A DNA stretch of 64,000 bases, from positions 310,001-374,000 of the forward strand of contig NZ_FOAZ01000003.1 of NCBI RefSeq assembly GCF_900109465.1, given 5' to 3'. The stretch comes from Streptacidiphilus jiangxiensis. Its GTDB lineage: Bacteria > Actinomycetota > Actinomycetes > Streptomycetales > Streptomycetaceae. Below are positions 35,913 through 61,619 of this stretch, in pieces; the stretch's first letter is position 1, and each line of letters begins with the position of its first letter. The notes below the pieces were generated by a model that was given only the letters and a program-made list of their open reading frames with translations, was not told where the DNA came from and did not search any database. A program made the translations under genes and the position numbers.

Positions 35913-36941
35913 TCAGCCGTCGGCCGGGAGCCAGCCGCGTTGGACCGCTTTGACGCCCGCCTCGAACCTGCTGCCGGCGTCCAGCCGTTCCAGCAGCGCC
36001 GCGGTGATGCGCCGGGCGGTGCGGGGGGAGACGCCGAGCCGCTTGGCGATGCCGCCGAGGGTGAGACCCGTGGCCATCAGCCGGAGCGTGGCCAGCTCCT
36101 GGGTGGACAGGTCGCGTTCCTTGCCGCGGGCCGTGCGCGGCTGGGCGCCGGGCGGCGCGAGCGTCAGCGCCTCGCCCTGGGCCCAGACCGCCTCGAACAG
36201 CGCGCACAGCGCCGCGACGACGCCGGCGACGGAGACGACGACAGCGCCCTGCTTGGTGTCCTGGCTGTCGGTGGGCAGGACGGCGGTGCGCCGGTCGATG
36301 ACCAGCATGCGGGTGGGCAGCGTGGCGACGGTCCGGACCTGGCCGCCGCTGTCCGCGAGCCACTGCGCGTGCGCGAGGGTGGGCGGGTGACTGCGGATGC
36401 TGGTCAGGTAGAGGGTGCGCAGCCGCACCCCGCGGCCGAGCAGTGCGGTGTTCAGCGGCCGCGAGGCGCGCATGTTCTCGTCGGTCTGGGGGCCGTCGGG
36501 GGCGAAGCTCAGCAGTTCCTCGGTGACGTCCCGGCTGAGGGCCGCTAACCGGTCCCGGATCTCGTCGATCCCGACCAGCACCTCCACCCCGGCCCGGCCC
36601 GCCCGCGTGCCCGGCCCCGCCGCCTCGGCGACCAGCTGGGCCGCGGCCTCGCGCGACAGCGCGAGCTGCTGGGCGTACTCCCGCAGCAGCGTCTCCTGGC
36701 GGGCCATCAGCACGTCCATGGCGACGTCCGGCCGCAGTGGCCGGTGCCGGCCCGGTGCCTCGTCGGACCGCCGCACCAGGGCCAGCCGGTCGAGTTCGAC
36801 GACGGCGGACCGCACGTGATCCTCGGTCAGGGAGAGCAGCCGCGCCAGCTCGGCGGGCCGCGCCCCGGGGTGCGCGAGCATCGCGCGGTAGACCGACGCG
36901 GTGCGCGCGTCCAGGCCCGGCGGTTCCTGAGGGTTCGCCAT
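35913..36941 (-). CDS. TrmB/LuxR-type transcriptional regulator (cluster-associated)
   Basis: 342 residues. A TrmB-like winged helix (ASVYRAMLAHPGARPAELARLLSL) and a coiled linker lead to a PLD-like sensor region (about 110-260) and a LuxR-type HTH at the C-terminus (LSTQELATLRLMATGLTLGGIAKRLGVSPRTARR). The ending DAGSRFEAGVKAVQRG is shared with the regulator at 57001. It stands at the end of the biosynthetic operon in the convergent orientation and is a good candidate for pathway control. ATG at 36941 with weak ribosome site; GGTCTAGACC 30 bases upstream may be an autoregulatory site. Confidence 0.78.
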   Translation of the reverse strand: MANPQEPPGLDARTASVYRAMLAHPGARPAELARLLSLTEDHVRSAVVELDRLALVRRSDEAPGRHRPLRPDVAMDVLMARQETLLREYAQQLALSREAAAQLVAEAAGPGTRAGRAGVEVLVGIDEIRDRLAALSRDVTEELLSFAPDGPQTDENMRASRPLNTALLGRGVRLRTLYLTSIRSHPPTLAHAQWLADSGGQVRTVATLPTRMLVIDRRTAVLPTDSQDTKQGAVVVSVAGVVAALCALFEAVWAQGEALTLAPPGAQPRTARGKERDLSTQELATLRLMATGLTLGGIAKRLGVSPRTARRITAALLERLDAGSRFEAGVKAVQRGWLPADG

Positions 36942-56955: not shown

Positions 56956-57007
56956 GTACTCGGGCCTGAGCGCTCGGGCCTGAGTGCTCGGTCCGGGCGC
57001 TCAGGCC
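56947..57007. repeat. 14-bp tandem repeats forming a shared terminator
   Basis: CGGGCCTGAGTACT, then two variants and a degenerate fourth unit, run from the TDT stop to the regulator stop. GGCCTGAGCG (56963-56972) pairs perfectly with CGCTCAGGCC (56998-57007), so the array also makes a hairpin between convergent genes. Confidence 0.7.
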
Positions 57008-58005
57008 GTCGAGGTCTTGAGCAGCCCGAGCTGGGCCGCCCGCACGCCCGCCTCGAAGCGGCTGTCGGCCCCCAACTCCTGCATGAGAGCGGCGATGTGC
57101 CGTCGGCAGGTGCGTACCGACATCCCCAGCCGCCGGGCCACGACCTCGTCCTTCAGCCCCTGGGCGAGCAATTCCAGCAATGACCGCTTCAGGTCGTCCG
57201 AGACATTCTGGTAGCCGGGGCCGTTCGGGTCGAACGGTGCGGCCGATATCCAGAACTGTTCGAAATGGGCCCGCATGAACGAGACGAGCACGGGCTCGCG
57301 CACCACCACGGCGCCCGGGGCCTGACCGGGCCTGCGCCGGTTGATGAAGGCGATCTCGCGGTCGACGATGATCATTCGCTCGGCCAGCTGGTCGGCCGTC
57401 CGGATCAGGGCGCCCGCCTCGATCATCGAGGAGACGTACGAGTGGACGCTCAGCTGGGTCCGGACGGTGTGCTGGTACAGGATCCTGATCTCGGCGCCTC
57501 TTCGCAGCGCGGTGACCTCCCGCGACAGGACCTCCTGCAGCAGCTCCGGAGGGCGGTGGCCGCCGGGTTGAACGGTCAGCAACTCGGTGGTGCACCGGTC
57601 GACCGCCTGGTTCACCAGGAGCTGGACCTCGGCCGGGTCCTGCACGATCTCGAGCCCTCCGGCCGGAGCCGTGGTGGTTCTGTCCAGGTAGGCGGGCATG
57701 AGCTGCAACAGGCTCTCCCGGGTGAGCTCCACGGCCCGGCGGTAGGACCTGATCGTCGCCTCGACCGGTTTCGACAACCGCGCGGCCGCGAGTTCGGGGT
57801 TGACCGGCACCAGCTGGTCGGTGTCCTCCGCCCGTTGGAGCAACTCACAGGCCAGGAGCGTGTCCCGGCACACCGTCAGCTCCTCGTGGTCCAGGCCCGT
57901 GGCGGCGGCTGCGCTGTCGAACCGGAACGAGCCGTCGAGGAGTACGTGGTGGTAGACGGCCACGACGGAGGGGTTGAGCTCGAGGGGGAGCATCGGGTCC
58001 ATCAT
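57001..58005 (-). CDS. TrmB/LuxR-type transcriptional regulator
   Basis: 334 residues. N-terminal TrmB-like winged helix (SVVAVYHHVLLDGSFRFDSAAAATGLDHEELTV), a helical linker, a PLD-like central region (LLTVQPGGHRPPELLQEVL, IRILYQHTVR, ADQLAERMIIVDREIAFI) and a C-terminal LuxR-type HTH (LKDEVVARRLGMSVRTCRRHIAALMQEL). The ending GADSRFEAGVRAAQLG matches the cluster regulator at 35913. ATG at 58005 (or 58002) has no good ribosome site; it is probably translated by coupling to the short CDS that ends directly before it. The ligand is unknown. Confidence 0.78.
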   Translation of the reverse strand: MMDPMLPLELNPSVVAVYHHVLLDGSFRFDSAAAATGLDHEELTVCRDTLLACELLQRAEDTDQLVPVNPELAAARLSKPVEATIRSYRRAVELTRESLLQLMPAYLDRTTTAPAGGLEIVQDPAEVQLLVNQAVDRCTTELLTVQPGGHRPPELLQEVLSREVTALRRGAEIRILYQHTVRTQLSVHSYVSSMIEAGALIRTADQLAERMIIVDREIAFINRRRPGQAPGAVVVREPVLVSFMRAHFEQFWISAAPFDPNGPGYQNVSDDLKRSLLELLAQGLKDEVVARRLGMSVRTCRRHIAALMQELGADSRFEAGVRAAQLGLLKTSTA

Positions 58006-58152: not shown

Positions 58153-58726
58153 ATGGTGTCCTCCCCCTGCTGTGTGGGAAGCGTACGCGGAGCGGCACGC
58201 GGCGCGGTCCCAACGCAGCAAGACCACCGTGCCCGCAGTGCAAGAAAGTTGGGGCGGCTGCCCGGTGGCATGAAGTGGACACGATCGGATGCGCCGTTTT
58301 CGGCCTCCGACAAATCGCCGCAGAACTACACATCTTTGCCTGCGAACTCTCCAGGATCCTGGGCAATCCCGGGATTTCGAGGGCTAGAGTCGATGCCCTG
58401 ACGCCGGCGAAGCCAGAGTGCCGCCAGCCGGGGGGACTGGCGGCACCAGCTTGGGCGTCGAGGAGGATCCCCCAAGCGCCACCCAAGGTAGTGGATCCGG
58501 CCCTTGTCTGTCATGGCCACATTCATGATTCGGTATTCCGTGATCGTGTCCCTTTCCGGCCTGGCACTGGAATGCCGCTCGGCGCCCATTGTCACCGGAT
58601 CGGGCGACGCGACAGGATCAGGACATCCCCCCAGGGTCACCGGCCGGTGCCTCCTCCTTCATCCGAACCGCTCTCCCACCTTTGTGGCGGCGGTCTCGGA
58701 ACGCTGTCTTGTTGGGAGTTGTCACC
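58153..58726. other. 574-base gene-poor region with a candidate structured leader at 58400-58477
   Basis: No convincing CDS; the short plus-strand frames here have no ribosome site or family look. At 58400-58477 several stems can form. GACGCC (58400-58405) pairs with GGCGTC (58454-58459), enclosing a perfect 10-bp hairpin (58418-58427 with 58437-58446). GCTTGGG (58449-58455) can instead pair with CCCAAGC (58471-58477), competing with the outer stem. This could be an attenuator or riboswitch-like leader of the gene at 58727. Not matched to a known class. Confidence 0.35.
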
Positions 58727-59260
58727 ATGCTGGAGGTCAAGCGTCAGCGCTTCCTCGTCTCCGCCGATCCGGCCCGCGAGACGCGTAACGTGAGGGCTTT
58801 CCTCGCAGCCCCGTCCCTGCGCCTTGCCGGACCCGCGGACGGAGTGATGTCGCTTCCGCTGCGCGAGCGGATCGCCGCGCTGCGGGTGGCTCTTCTGGAC
58901 AGTGGCGTGACCGTGTACAGCTCGCACCACGACGAGGAATGGGTCTCCCGCGAGGGGACCGGCCCGCGGGTGCCGTCCCCGTTCCGCGCGATGCAGAGCG
59001 CCGACGTGGTCTTCGCCTACGTCGGTCAGCGGCCCTCCACCGGCATGGGCATGGAGCTGGGCTGGGCGACCGCGCTGCGCAAGCCGGTGGTCCTCATGGT
59101 CGACGAGGCCAAGGTGCACGGGGTGCTGATCGACCAGCTCGAGTCGGTGACCAAGGTGCTGCCGATCAAGGACGACGGTCCGATGACGCCCAGCGCGCTC
59201 CGCCACACCGTGGTCACCGCCCTGGACTGGGCGGACCAGGCGGCGCCGCTCGCCGGCTGA
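58727..59260 (+). CDS. Nucleoside 2-deoxyribosyltransferase-like protein
   Basis: 177 residues from the ATG behind GGGAG. The Rossmann-like flavodoxin fold of the NDT/SLOG group is suggested by FLVSADPARETRNVRAFLA, a helix with RERIAALRVALLDSGVTVYSS, MQSADVVFAYVGQRP (Asp93) and GMGMELGWATALRKPVVLMV with Glu110, the position of the NDT nucleophile. It might hydrolyse or bind a nucleoside or nucleotide signal. It lies between regulatory genes, so a signalling role is as likely as salvage. Family placement is from motifs only. Confidence 0.6.
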   Translation: MLEVKRQRFLVSADPARETRNVRAFLAAPSLRLAGPADGVMSLPLRERIAALRVALLDSGVTVYSSHHDEEWVSREGTGPRVPSPFRAMQSADVVFAYVGQRPSTGMGMELGWATALRKPVVLMVDEAKVHGVLIDQLESVTKVLPIKDDGPMTPSALRHTVVTALDWADQAAPLAG

Positions 59261-59364: not shown

Positions 59365-59910
59365 TTGAAGTGCATGCCGCAGCAGCACACGTGCAGGTGG
59401 TCCACCCGTTCGACCCGGGTGGAGCTGTTGCTGACGCGCCTGGCCGCGGGGACTCCCGCGCAGGCGCTCGCCACCGAGCACGCGCTCAGCCTGGTGGAGG
59501 TCATCGCCATCGGCGTCGATCACGGCCTGTCCGTCCCCAGTGCCGCCGCCGGTCGACGCCAGGGCCTCGGCCCCTGGGCGCGCACCTGCCGTCCGGGTGA
59601 CCACAGGTGCTTCTGGGCGGACCGGGGCGAGGTGATCGACGCACTGATCGGTGACTACGCGGACGGGGCCTCGCTCATCCAGCTCTCCCGGGCCTTCCCC
59701 TACTCGCGGGCCACGGCCGCGCGGATCCTGGACGCCCACGACGTCCCGCGGCGCTCCCGCTCCGAGCAGTGCACCCGGATCCCCCTGGACCTGGAGACGG
59801 TGCAGGCCGAGCTGGACGCGGACATGTCGCTGACCGAGGTGGCCGCGCGCCACGGGCTGTCCCGGCAGATGCTGCGCCGACGTCTGAACCGGGCGAAGGC
59901 CGCCGCATGA
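59365..59910 (+). CDS. Protein with three helix-turn-helix-like modules
   Basis: 181 residues if the TTG at 59365 is used (GGGAGG five bases upstream); GTG at 59419 is an alternative. HTH-like units occur near 21-58 (LLTRLAAGTPAQALATEHALS), 90-128 (VIDALIGDYADGASLIQLSRAFPYSRATAARIL) and 147-178 (AELDADMSLTEVAARHGLSRQMLRRRL). A Cys/His cluster (CRPGDHRCFW, 76-84) separates the first two. It ends in an ATGA overlap with the next regulator, so they are co-expressed. Likely DNA-binding; resembles the HTH part of resolvases, but no catalytic domain is present. Confidence 0.6.
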   Translation: MKCMPQQHTCRWSTRSTRVELLLTRLAAGTPAQALATEHALSLVEVIAIGVDHGLSVPSAAAGRRQGLGPWARTCRPGDHRCFWADRGEVIDALIGDYADGASLIQLSRAFPYSRATAARILDAHDVPRRSRSEQCTRIPLDLETVQAELDADMSLTEVAARHGLSRQMLRRRLNRAKAAA

Positions 59911-60926
59911 CGCACGAGATCGAGAGCCTGACCAAGGAAGCCGTCACGGCCTACCAGGAAGCCCTGGCGAACGGCAGCATCCTCAAGACTCCGGGCGGGG
60001 ACGGGGTTCCGTCCCCCACGGCCCCTCCCCGTTCGGCCGTCACCGAGTTGCTGCGCGCCGGGCTGCTGCGCGACAGCGTGGACAACGCCGAGGTGTGGGT
60101 CCCGGTCGACCCGGAGACCGCCGCCGTCCAGGCCGAGCGACAGGCCCGCCAGGCGTGGGCGGACGCCTCACGCCTGCAGCAGGACTACGCGCCGCTCACC
60201 GCGGCGTACCGGTCCCGGCGCAACTGGAGCACGGGCGATTCGCAGATCCGCTACGTCGAGGGCAAGGCGGAGATCGCGCAGCAGGCGCAGGCGTTGGCTG
60301 CGGCCGCGAAGAGCCGCGTCTTCACCGTCCAGCCGGGCCCCCGGCGCCCCAAGGACACGCTCGACCACAGTCTTCCGGCCGACCTCGCGCTGCTGCGCCG
60401 GGGGGTGCACCGAAGAATCCTCTACCAGTCGCCGGCCCGCCGTCATCCGGACACCAGGGAGTACGTCCGGGCCTTGGTCGAGGTCGGTGCCGAGGTGCGC
60501 GCCGCGGACGAGCTGTACGAGCGGGTCTTCATCATCGACGACACGGTGATCCACCCGGTGGACGGCAATGCGAACGTGGCCGTGCTCGTCAGCGAGCCGG
60601 CCACGGTGGCCTTTCACTGCCTGGTGTTCGAGCAGGCCTGGCAGCGCGCGCAGCCGTTCCTGGAGGCGCCGAAGCCGGAGGAGGAGGCCGTCGAGGACGG
60701 CCGGGCCGGCGATCAGCTGACGGCGATGCAGAAGCTCATCGTGCGGCTGCTGATCAACGAGGAGCTGAAGCACGAGGCCATCGCGGCCGCCACCGGGCTG
60801 TCCCTGCGCACGGTGCGGCGCCAACTGGAAGTCGTCCGCTCGGTGTTCGGGAACGTGGAGACGACCCCGCGGCTGGCATGGGAAATCCGCGGACAGTACC
60901 CGGAGGGTCTCCCCGCGGATTGGTAG
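59907..60926 (+). CDS. TrmB/LuxR-type transcriptional regulator
   Basis: 339 residues. TrmB-like N-terminus (VTELLRAGLLRDSVDNAEVWVPVDPETAAVQAERQARQAW), a PLD-like sensor region (SRVFTVQPGPRRPKDTL, RRILYQSPARRHPDTREYVRAL, ADELYERVFIIDDTVI) and a C-terminal LuxR-like HTH (LKHEAIAAATGLSLRTVRRQLEVV). Same architecture as the regulators at 35913 and 57001. Coupled to the three-HTH protein upstream. Its stop is 35 bases from the convergent DLGWT-repeat peptide gene, which makes it a candidate partner of that peptide. Confidence 0.75.
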   Translation: MTHEIESLTKEAVTAYQEALANGSILKTPGGDGVPSPTAPPRSAVTELLRAGLLRDSVDNAEVWVPVDPETAAVQAERQARQAWADASRLQQDYAPLTAAYRSRRNWSTGDSQIRYVEGKAEIAQQAQALAAAAKSRVFTVQPGPRRPKDTLDHSLPADLALLRRGVHRRILYQSPARRHPDTREYVRALVEVGAEVRAADELYERVFIIDDTVIHPVDGNANVAVLVSEPATVAFHCLVFEQAWQRAQPFLEAPKPEEEAVEDGRAGDQLTAMQKLIVRLLINEELKHEAIAAATGLSLRTVRRQLEVVRSVFGNVETTPRLAWEIRGQYPEGLPADW

Positions 60927-60961: not shown

Positions 60962-61150
60962 TCAGGGGGCGACCGGGGTCCTCGTCCATCCCAGGTCGGC
61001 CAGGGCCTGCCCGTGGGCGGCGGTCCATCCCAGGTCGGCCACCGTGCTGCTCTTGACGGCCGTCCATCCCAGGTCCTGCGCGCCCACGCCTGCGACGGCG
61101 GCGGCGGCGAGGATCGCTGAGACGATCACGACGCGGATACGGCGCGACAT
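60962..61150 (-). CDS. Exported 62-aa peptide with three 13-residue DLGWT repeats
   Basis: Start ATG at 61150 with GGAG six bases upstream; an ATG two codons earlier is too close to that site. Residues 1-24 form a signal peptide (MSRRIR, hydrophobic core, AGVGA before Gln25). The mature 38 residues consist of DLGWT at 26-30, 39-43 and 52-56, spaced exactly 13, with variable connectors and the end RTPVAP. The DNA has two identical 18-base copies (60984-61001, 61023-61040) and a third 14-base match (61062-61075). No Cys. It may be a secreted signal, a multi-core precursor or a surface peptide. It is convergent to the TrmB/LuxR regulator and divergent from the 75-aa gene. I know no named family. 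Confidence 0.7.
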   Translation of the reverse strand: MSRRIRVVIVSAILAAAAVAGVGAQDLGWTAVKSSTVADLGWTAAHGQALADLGWTRTPVAP

Positions 61151-61254
61151 ACTCATCTCCTCTCTGGCGGGAACCCCACCTGTGAACATATTTGCCAACT
61201 GTGGTCTGCTGTTCGCTCTGGATGGTACCGCTCGGAACCGGTAATGACTGCCCC

Positions 61255-61391: not shown

Positions 61392-61619
61392 ATGCCAAAC
61401 GACCCTCGCTATCCGGCCGTGGTGAATGCGCAGACCCGTCTGCACCACTGGAGTGTGGAGTCGGCGCGGGAGCGGGCGGAGAGATTCCGGGAGGCGCGCG
61501 ACGCCGGGGTGACGCCCGAGCAGATCGCCGTCATCACGGGTCTGCCGCTGGAGGTCGTGATGGAGGACCTCGGGGCGCGGGCGGCGAACAGCCGCGCGGT
61601 CAGTCTGGTGTGGGCCTAG
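61392..61619 (+). CDS. Small 75-aa HTH-like protein
   Basis: ATG at 61392 with GAGG upstream. The body is helical (HHWSVESARERAERFREARDAG), followed by VTPEQIAVITGLPLEVVMEDLG, which looks like a small helix-turn-helix. Divergent from the repeat peptide gene. No family recognised; a regulatory role is a guess. Followed by a strong terminator. Confidence 0.55.
   Translation: MPNDPRYPAVVNAQTRLHHWSVESARERAERFREARDAGVTPEQIAVITGLPLEVVMEDLGARAANSRAVSLVWA

Follow-up and report, generated by a model that had tools for sequence, protein, structure and literature searches.

The window, i.e., the whole 64,000-nucleotide stretch analysed here from a Streptacidiphilus genome, carries a small gene for a peptide with three DLGWT copies that converges with the gene for a TrmB-like/LuxR regulator (Table 1). 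The stop codons of the regulator and peptide genes, at 60926 and 60962, are separated by 35 bp, in agreement with the tail-to-tail layout claimed in the initial annotation. The ORF 60962-61150 on the reverse strand translates to MSRRIRVVIVSAILAAAAVAGVGAQDLGWTAVKSSTVADLGWTAAHGQALADLGWTRTPVAP. The first 24 residues, with an arginine-rich start, a hydrophobic core and then VGA preceding QDLGWT, probably act as a Sec signal peptide, as judged from the sequence and a hydrophobicity scan. The starts of the three DLGWT copies are exactly 13 residues, or 39 nt, apart, and the copies are written in identical codons. The 62-aa product with three DLGWT at 13-residue spacing, as first described, was borne out by translation. 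The accompanying claim of identical DNA repeats stood only in part: a stretch of 19 nt is common to two copies, only 14 nt are common to all three, and the third copy is 79% identical to the 19 nt. Clearly, the copies are exact at the level of the pentapeptide, but only two of them form a long identical DNA repeat. The ribosome-binding site AGAGGAG, also claimed before, lies 6 nt ahead of the ATG at 61150. An alternative in-frame upstream ATG at 61156 directly abuts this site and is lacking in the relative from genome G012, which makes 61150 the likelier start.

Table 1. Features of the peptide–regulator locus and of related genes in the window
Feature	Position	Strand	Basis or remark
Second paralogous TrmB/LuxR regulator	35913..36941	(-)	without detected adjacent DxxW peptide
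Paralogous TrmB/LuxR regulator	57001..58005	(-)	without detected adjacent DxxW peptide
Nucleoside 2-deoxyribosyltransferase-like protein	58589..59260	(+)	kept beside the regulator in G012, G009, G007
HTH protein upstream of regulator	59365..59910	(+)	stop overlapped by regulator ATG (59907)
Paired TrmB-like/LuxR regulator	59907..60926	(+)	Pfam, AlphaFold2, Foldseek, profile match
Regulator residue 139, Val in window	60318..60320	(+)	tracks Ser/Thr at x1
Regulator residues 159-160, Ala-Asp in window	60378..60383	(+)	residue counts over 105 pairs
62-aa peptide precursor, MSRR..., three DLGWT copies	60962..61150	(-)	translation and relatives
DLGWT core copy 3	60983..60997	(-)	sequence
DLGWT core copy 2	61022..61036	(-)	sequence
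DLGWT core copy 1	61061..61075	(-)	sequence
Probable Sec signal peptide, residues 1-24	61079..61150	(-)	sequence and hydrophobicity scan
Ribosome-binding site AGAGGAG	61157..61163	(-)	6 nt ahead of ATG 61150
75-aa HTH-like protein, divergent from peptide gene	61392..61619	(+)	relatives in G012, G009, G007

Synteny of the locus and the domains of the regulator

Three syntenic genomes, G012, G009 and G007 (the last, like the window host, of the genus Streptacidiphilus), were searched with the window proteins over 18-20 kb. The corresponding place in G012 encodes a relative of the peptide (67% identity over 49 aa) with two DLGWQ copies, and the window ORF is therefore, on sequence grounds, a real gene and not a chance one. 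In G009 and G007 the same place is occupied by a peptide with two DIVW copies. The comparison of repeat number that the initial annotation had proposed gave a D-x-x-W peptide in all three genomes, with two copies in each. The core spacing in these genomes and in the window genome is 12, 13 or 15 residues; besides spacing, they differ in copy number and in the residue that follows Trp, and D-x-x-W is constant. The conserved unit is D-x-x-W instead of the 13-residue DLGWT unit initially claimed, and a fixed 13-residue unit was rejected, since copy number and spacing are variable.

A sequence search of the genome contigs with the window peptide gave no relative, Pfam and NCBIfam contained no family for it or for ten relatives (weak sub-threshold matches only), and PHROGs and PADLOC contained no family for the window peptide. 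A short, repeated ORF without a database family could be a chance ORF or a structural repeat peptide unrelated to the regulator. This reading, to which we give hardly any credence, is contradicted by the synteny described above and by the control regions, the identity of cores within precursors and the covariation described below.

All three syntenic genomes retain the regulator gene, the small HTH gene at 61392 and, with 62-63% identity over about 150 aa, the deoxyribosyltransferase-like gene. The latter may be part of the module, and the 75-aa HTH-like protein is perhaps a target or partner of the peptide–regulator pair. The HTH gene upstream of the regulator has a relative in G012 only, among the three genomes compared. 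Its coupling to the regulator gene, noted initially, is evident from the overlap of its stop with the ATG at 59907, but the three HTH segments ascribed to its product were not confirmed: one HTH near the C-terminus is above the Pfam cut-off, and the other segments are weak matches. In the 18-20 kb covered, G012, G009 and G007 gave no match to hspR/dnaJ. Neither a transporter nor a protease was seen among the window neighbours examined, and no modification enzyme among those scanned, as stated in the initial annotation. Two more regulators of the same type are encoded in the window. Since the regulators L025, L026, L028, L034 and L035, which are similar to the one at 57001-58005, each have a divergent DxxW peptide gene, this paralog may have lost its own peptide.

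The regulator paired with the window peptide comprises an N-terminal winged helix, a coiled coil, a TrmB/phospholipase-D-like (PLD-like) sensor (about residues 115-248) and a C-terminal LuxR/GerE-type HTH. Its AlphaFold2 model, made from a four-sequence alignment, had a mean pLDDT of 76 and a pTM of 0.48. The best Foldseek match of the model was TrmBL2 (5bpd, E 2.9e-12), other matches including TrmB (3qph, 2f5t) and PLD-fold proteins, and the family sequence profile matched TrmBL2 (E 9.2e-9) as well as LuxR/GerE HTH domains. As the pTM is 0.48 and the model aligns with TrmBL2 with a TM of 0.35 over the query and an rmsd of 20.9, the domain arrangement is not fixed. In our reading, the modelled protein is a putative one-component regulator of TrmB type to which a LuxR-type HTH has been added at the C-terminus. 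Neither the Pfam list nor the model and fold search contained a TPR domain, no Pfam match to an autoinducer-binding domain was obtained, and the quorum-sensing LuxR-type structure 2q0o was only 47th among the Foldseek matches (E 1e-3). No membrane segment is among the listed elements of the modelled regulator.

Peptide–regulator pairs in Streptomycetaceae and beyond

Matches to the regulator numbered 98 in 14 Streptacidiphilus genomes, including 13 in the window's own genome; 7 of the 98 were left out of the locus survey. The regulator was present in 115 of 121 sampled Streptomycetaceae genomes and in 14 of 17 genera, and in a class-wide sample it was found in 20 of 148 genomes, 9 of them outside Streptomycetaceae. 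A profile search of genome contigs with the regulator alignment A3 gave at least one locus, in Streptacidiphilus sp. 4-A2.

A search for small signal-bearing ORFs near such regulators had been suggested in the initial annotation, and its result speaks for the pairing. The rule demanded a ribosome site, an ATG or GTG start, a hydrophobic N-terminus, a length of 40-100 aa and D..W. Under this rule, whose motif was chosen once 30 of the 109 loci had been viewed, peptides were found at 41 of 109 regulator loci (411 kb, a few loci overlapping or duplicated) vs. none in the controls, which were 20 regions of 20 kb each (400 kb in all) taken from the same genus. When the motif was not demanded, the test loci gave 71 ORFs and the controls 24. 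The altered motifs E..W, R..W, W..D, D..F, D..Y, D..L[GNDTQ], A..W and P..W had 0-2 matches in the test loci, G..W and S..W had 4 and 3, respectively, and A..W had 4 matches in the control regions. By the strict rule, 68 of the 109 loci lacked a D..W peptide; such loci often carry looser variants, e.g., PDNGTWG or DTSAWG.

Family members occur in Streptacidiphilus, Streptomyces, Kitasatospora and some other actinobacteria, and in named records they are hypothetical proteins, if annotated at all. They include a S. globosus peptide with three DTGWGAP, a peptide with two DLPWT in an unannotated stretch of a S. clavuligerus plasmid, and peptides with CDDTSWGG in Kitasatospora NBC_00039 and DDLGWQ in Streptomyces NBC_00435. 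Outside Streptomycetaceae, short D..W peptides were found at four loci of genus g59, where the precursors (L298-L301) have 41-46 aa and DTGW, DTSW or DSSW just past the signal peptide; one locus of family f30 encodes a peptide with STIWG. Of 13 plasmid matches opened, H2 and H4 had no DxxW peptide. Across the family, a small precursor, whose export was judged by hydrophobicity alone, adjoins the regulator. The two genes are on opposite strands in 103 of 106 pairs (77 divergent, 26 convergent), with a median gap of 160 bp between the peptide and the matched regulator domain. These pairs involve 101 curated precursors, which remained after the removal of 13 ORFs inside regulators or other genes or spurious-looking from 114 candidates, and five precursors from named plasmids.

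A single genome may have several such peptides. A list compiled by hand, which is not a census, covers 26 peptides of seven Streptacidiphilus genomes; in it, the last pentapeptides differ within each genome, and in the window genome two listed peptides share DMGW (DMGWN and DMGWQ). The surroundings of some loci contain biosynthetic genes. Thus, NRPS, MbtH or ketosynthase genes were seen near 5 of the 13 plasmid matches viewed, with unequal flank sizes, and the S. globosus precursor gene is divergent from its regulator and lies on the same strand as, and ahead of, MbtH and two NRPS genes. Genes of ScbA/ScbR type are near some regulators of this TrmB/LuxR family. Separately, at L238, L239, L244 and L245 stand-alone LuxR-type HTH proteins of 73-89 aa are encoded near single-copy DTSW peptides. 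The peptides of L242 (7231-7434) and L243 (7239-7433), which end in DDEWHVGCP and DDQWGAACP, have two cysteines each around the core; their genes are just upstream of a regulator, and the clusters also contain acyl carrier, ketosynthase-like and AfsA-related genes.

Among the 101 curated precursors, 51 have one core copy, 30 have two, 12 have three and 8 have four to nine. Hence, several copies, as initially envisaged, are not a general trait of the family. The number of copies also bears on the possibility that the precursors yield a secreted end product, such as a small antibiotic, a modified RiPP or a protease inhibitor, which the regulator senses for self-control. In their repeats of a short core the peptides do resemble multi-core RiPP precursors, the thiovarsolin family is matched weakly and below threshold by one member, and some loci, as mentioned above, are near NRPS or ketosynthase genes. 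However, the copy number is often one, the cores vary freely, the signals are Sec-like instead of RiPP leaders, and no modification enzyme was seen among the scanned neighbours of the window gene. We regard an end product as improbable, and even this would retain a ligand–receptor relation.

Core identity and covariation with the regulator

The copies within a precursor are alike to an extent that is not seen between precursors. One DxxW is kept throughout all copies in 47 of 50 multi-copy precursors, the exceptions being L087, L139 and L140, whereas in 20,000 trials in which the copies were shuffled among precursors the mean number of uniform precursors was 3.0 and the maximum was 11. At the two variable positions of the core, x1 and x2, identity was 0.97 and 0.95 within precursors vs. 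0.33 and 0.29 between them, and at the residue after Trp it was 0.73 vs. 0.18; flanking positions had a within-precursor identity of 0.18-0.44. As the copies differ in codons in 34 of the 47 uniform precursors, in some cases with Ser encoded by AGC vs. TCC, recent DNA duplication alone does not account for the core identity.

In a Streptomyces ortholog group, in which 26 of 30 loci have a peptide, the N-terminus of the precursor is similar and the core differs by species (e.g., DSAW, DTAW, DTRW, DTVW and DSTW, and further DSKW, DSHW, DVGW, DISW and DLGW). A stable precursor N-terminus with a species-variable core is, as read from these predicted proteins, a pheromone-precursor pattern. The residue preceding the core Asp is Ala in 69 of 195 copies and is otherwise varied. 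No common protease site was found around the cores of these 195 copies.

The covariation of cores and regulators was analysed in 105 pairs, i.e., the 106 pairs minus one that was a duplicate or too short, and the sensor domain was taken as exactly residues 115-248 (99-243 in the first run). In a partial Mantel test, the core correlated with the sensor domain given the rest of the protein (r = 0.27, p = 0.001, 105 pairs), p-values of this test being possibly too small because related pairs are not independent. The reverse test, with the rest of the protein given the sensor domain, gave r = -0.19. The positive partial r was kept in equal-column subsamples (mean 0.22), in 31 Streptomyces orthologs (0.43) and in 56 thinned pairs (0.25).

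Two positions of the regulator, residues 139 and 160 (residue 1 being the codon at 59904), track the second position of the core, x1. When x1 is Ser, Asp160 is present in 44 of 44 pairs and Val139 in none of the 44; when it is Thr, Asp160 is present in 23 of 24 and Val139 in 22 of 24. Pairs with Leu, Ile, Val or Met at x1 have Asp160 in 7 of 26 cases, the window pair among these 7. In disjoint pairs of nearest relatives with Ser and Thr, residue 139 switches as expected in 22 of 24 and never in the opposite direction, while the next best regulator column reaches a net of 10. Among 44 same-class control pairs, 20 differ at residue 139 and 11 at residue 160. Physically, the Ser/Thr pattern could be explained by a larger residue 139 facing Ser and a smaller one facing Thr, with Asp close to the hydroxyl.

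The window pair itself does not follow the simple rule: its regulator has Val139, Ala159 and Asp160, which would give Thr, and its core has Leu. The signature Arg159 with Asp160, defined post hoc, places it correctly; this signature is found in 63 of 68 pairs with Ser or Thr at x1, in none of 26 with Leu, Ile, Val or Met, and in 2 of 11 with other residues. At locus L230 (7212-13600), a single DTAW peptide is accompanied by an array of six TrmB/LuxR regulators. The peptide-adjacent regulator has Val139 and Asp160, as expected for Thr, but so do three non-adjacent ones, and the signature therefore does not single out the regulator beside the peptide.

The 139/160 rule was recorded before new loci were fetched, of which 33 of 51 had a peptide and 18 had no D..W peptide. 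On pairs outside the training set, the rule was correct in 32 of 32 (18 Ser, 11 Thr and 3 other), 20 of these pairs having come from a Streptomyces ortholog search to which part of the training set also goes back. The Streptomyces loci L304 and L305 agree with the rule, and L303 (STIW) was left unscored. In genus g59, the rule was wrong in two of four pairs, both with Thr cores and Leu139 instead of Val139. A universal 139/160 code was rejected, because 7 of 26 hydrophobic cores keep Asp160 and two of four g59 pairs fail. Taken together, these comparisons show that the core and the neighbouring regulator vary together between species, the window pair, L230 and g59 being exceptions.

A proposed signalling route and its relation to known systems

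The initial suggestion of a peptide signal paired with a sensor-type regulator is supported by the identity of cores within precursors and by the covariation of core and regulator. We consider it probable that the product of the window gene is a pheromone precursor and that the paired cytoplasmic regulator recognises its DxxW core. The sequence comparisons themselves show a gene family, its linkage to the regulator, identical cores within precursors and joint variation of core and sensor; from these we infer secretion, processing, import, direct binding, targets and a social function as follows. The precursor would be exported by the Sec route and its signal peptide removed, after which extracellular or cell-wall proteases would free short peptides bearing the D-L-G-W core, of which the window precursor has three copies; related precursors have one to nine core copies. 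After re-import, probably via an oligopeptide transporter, the peptide would bind the phospholipase-D-like sensor domain of the adjacent regulator. Binding would switch the control that the regulator exerts on its own locus and, in some relatives, on a neighbouring biosynthetic cluster. The specificity of a pair would come from the variable core residues and from the regulator residues around 139 and 160.

Covariation speaks for recognition and is no demonstration of an exit of the peptide from the cell. While the precursor encoded beside it is still intracellular, the regulator could instead read its DxxW segments, as a monitor of secretion or translation and not as part of a cell-to-cell signal. 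Recognition, and not exit, is what the covariation of core and sensor needs; the modelled regulator has no listed membrane segment, and no importer was seen among the window neighbours, all of which would suit such a monitor. Nevertheless, multiple copies, variable linkers and species-specific cores look more like a released signal than like cargo, and we find an intracellular monitor unlikely.

Extending the pheromone reading beyond the window, we think it fairly likely that Streptomycetaceae and some other actinobacteria have a large class of D-x-x-W pheromones with TrmB-PLD-LuxR receptors and a decodable code, with several channels per genome, some of which would switch natural-product clusters. 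The code proposed for Streptomycetaceae, as part of this reading, is that Asp160 would correspond to Ser when residue 139 is Met or otherwise large and mostly to Thr when it is Val, and that other signatures would correspond to other residues. Signalling in Streptomyces is known mainly via gamma-butyrolactones and similar small molecules. If the reading is true, cheap synthetic tetra- to hexapeptides could be used to test the switching on of silent antibiotic clusters, and a new sensor family with predictable ligands from a peptide language would be at hand. Because the ligand core and the receptor specificity position are already predicted from the sequence, the idea is directly testable.

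Searches of open-access papers gave no description of such a DxxW peptide–regulator system, and our comparisons point to an apparently undescribed form of peptide signalling. Known RRNPP systems include Rap/Phr, PlcR/PapR, Rgg/SHP and ComR/XIP. The RRNPP systems of Firmicutes (PMC10075063, PMC4701985) are among the nearest comparisons. As in RRNPP systems, a small exported precursor, its export here being predicted, adjoins a cytoplasmic HTH regulator, a short linear peptide is the presumed ligand, and the variation is pair-specific. In contrast to the TPR receptors of RRNPP systems, the regulator here has a TrmB/PLD-like sensor and a LuxR-type HTH, and in contrast to their Firmicutes hosts, the D-x-x-W core is found in actinobacteria.

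The regulator resembles the archaeal TrmB family (TrmB, TrmBL2), which gave the best fold matches, in having a winged helix and a PLD-like effector domain. The known ligands of TrmB are sugars, and the 2f5t entry is titled as a sugar-binding domain. Unlike archaeal TrmB, the regulator has an added C-terminal LuxR/GerE HTH, and a linked peptide covaries with its sensor. It shares this C-terminal GerE/LuxR HTH with LuxR-type quorum-sensing regulators but, unlike them, has no autoinducer-binding domain by Pfam, and its sensor matches TrmB/PLD folds.

In the precursors of yeast alpha-factor and fungal dikaritins, a signal peptide precedes a short core that is repeated several times between variable linkers. 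The multi-copy peptides described here have the same layout of signal, repeated short core and variable linkers; they differ in their bacterial host, no homology is known, and no common processing site was seen. In the gamma-butyrolactone/ScbR system of Streptomyces, a small-molecule signal acts with a receptor of TetR type. As in that system, the putative signal described here is paired with an adjacent regulator and the pair can sit in biosynthetic clusters, but the signal would be a peptide and the regulator is of TrmB type.
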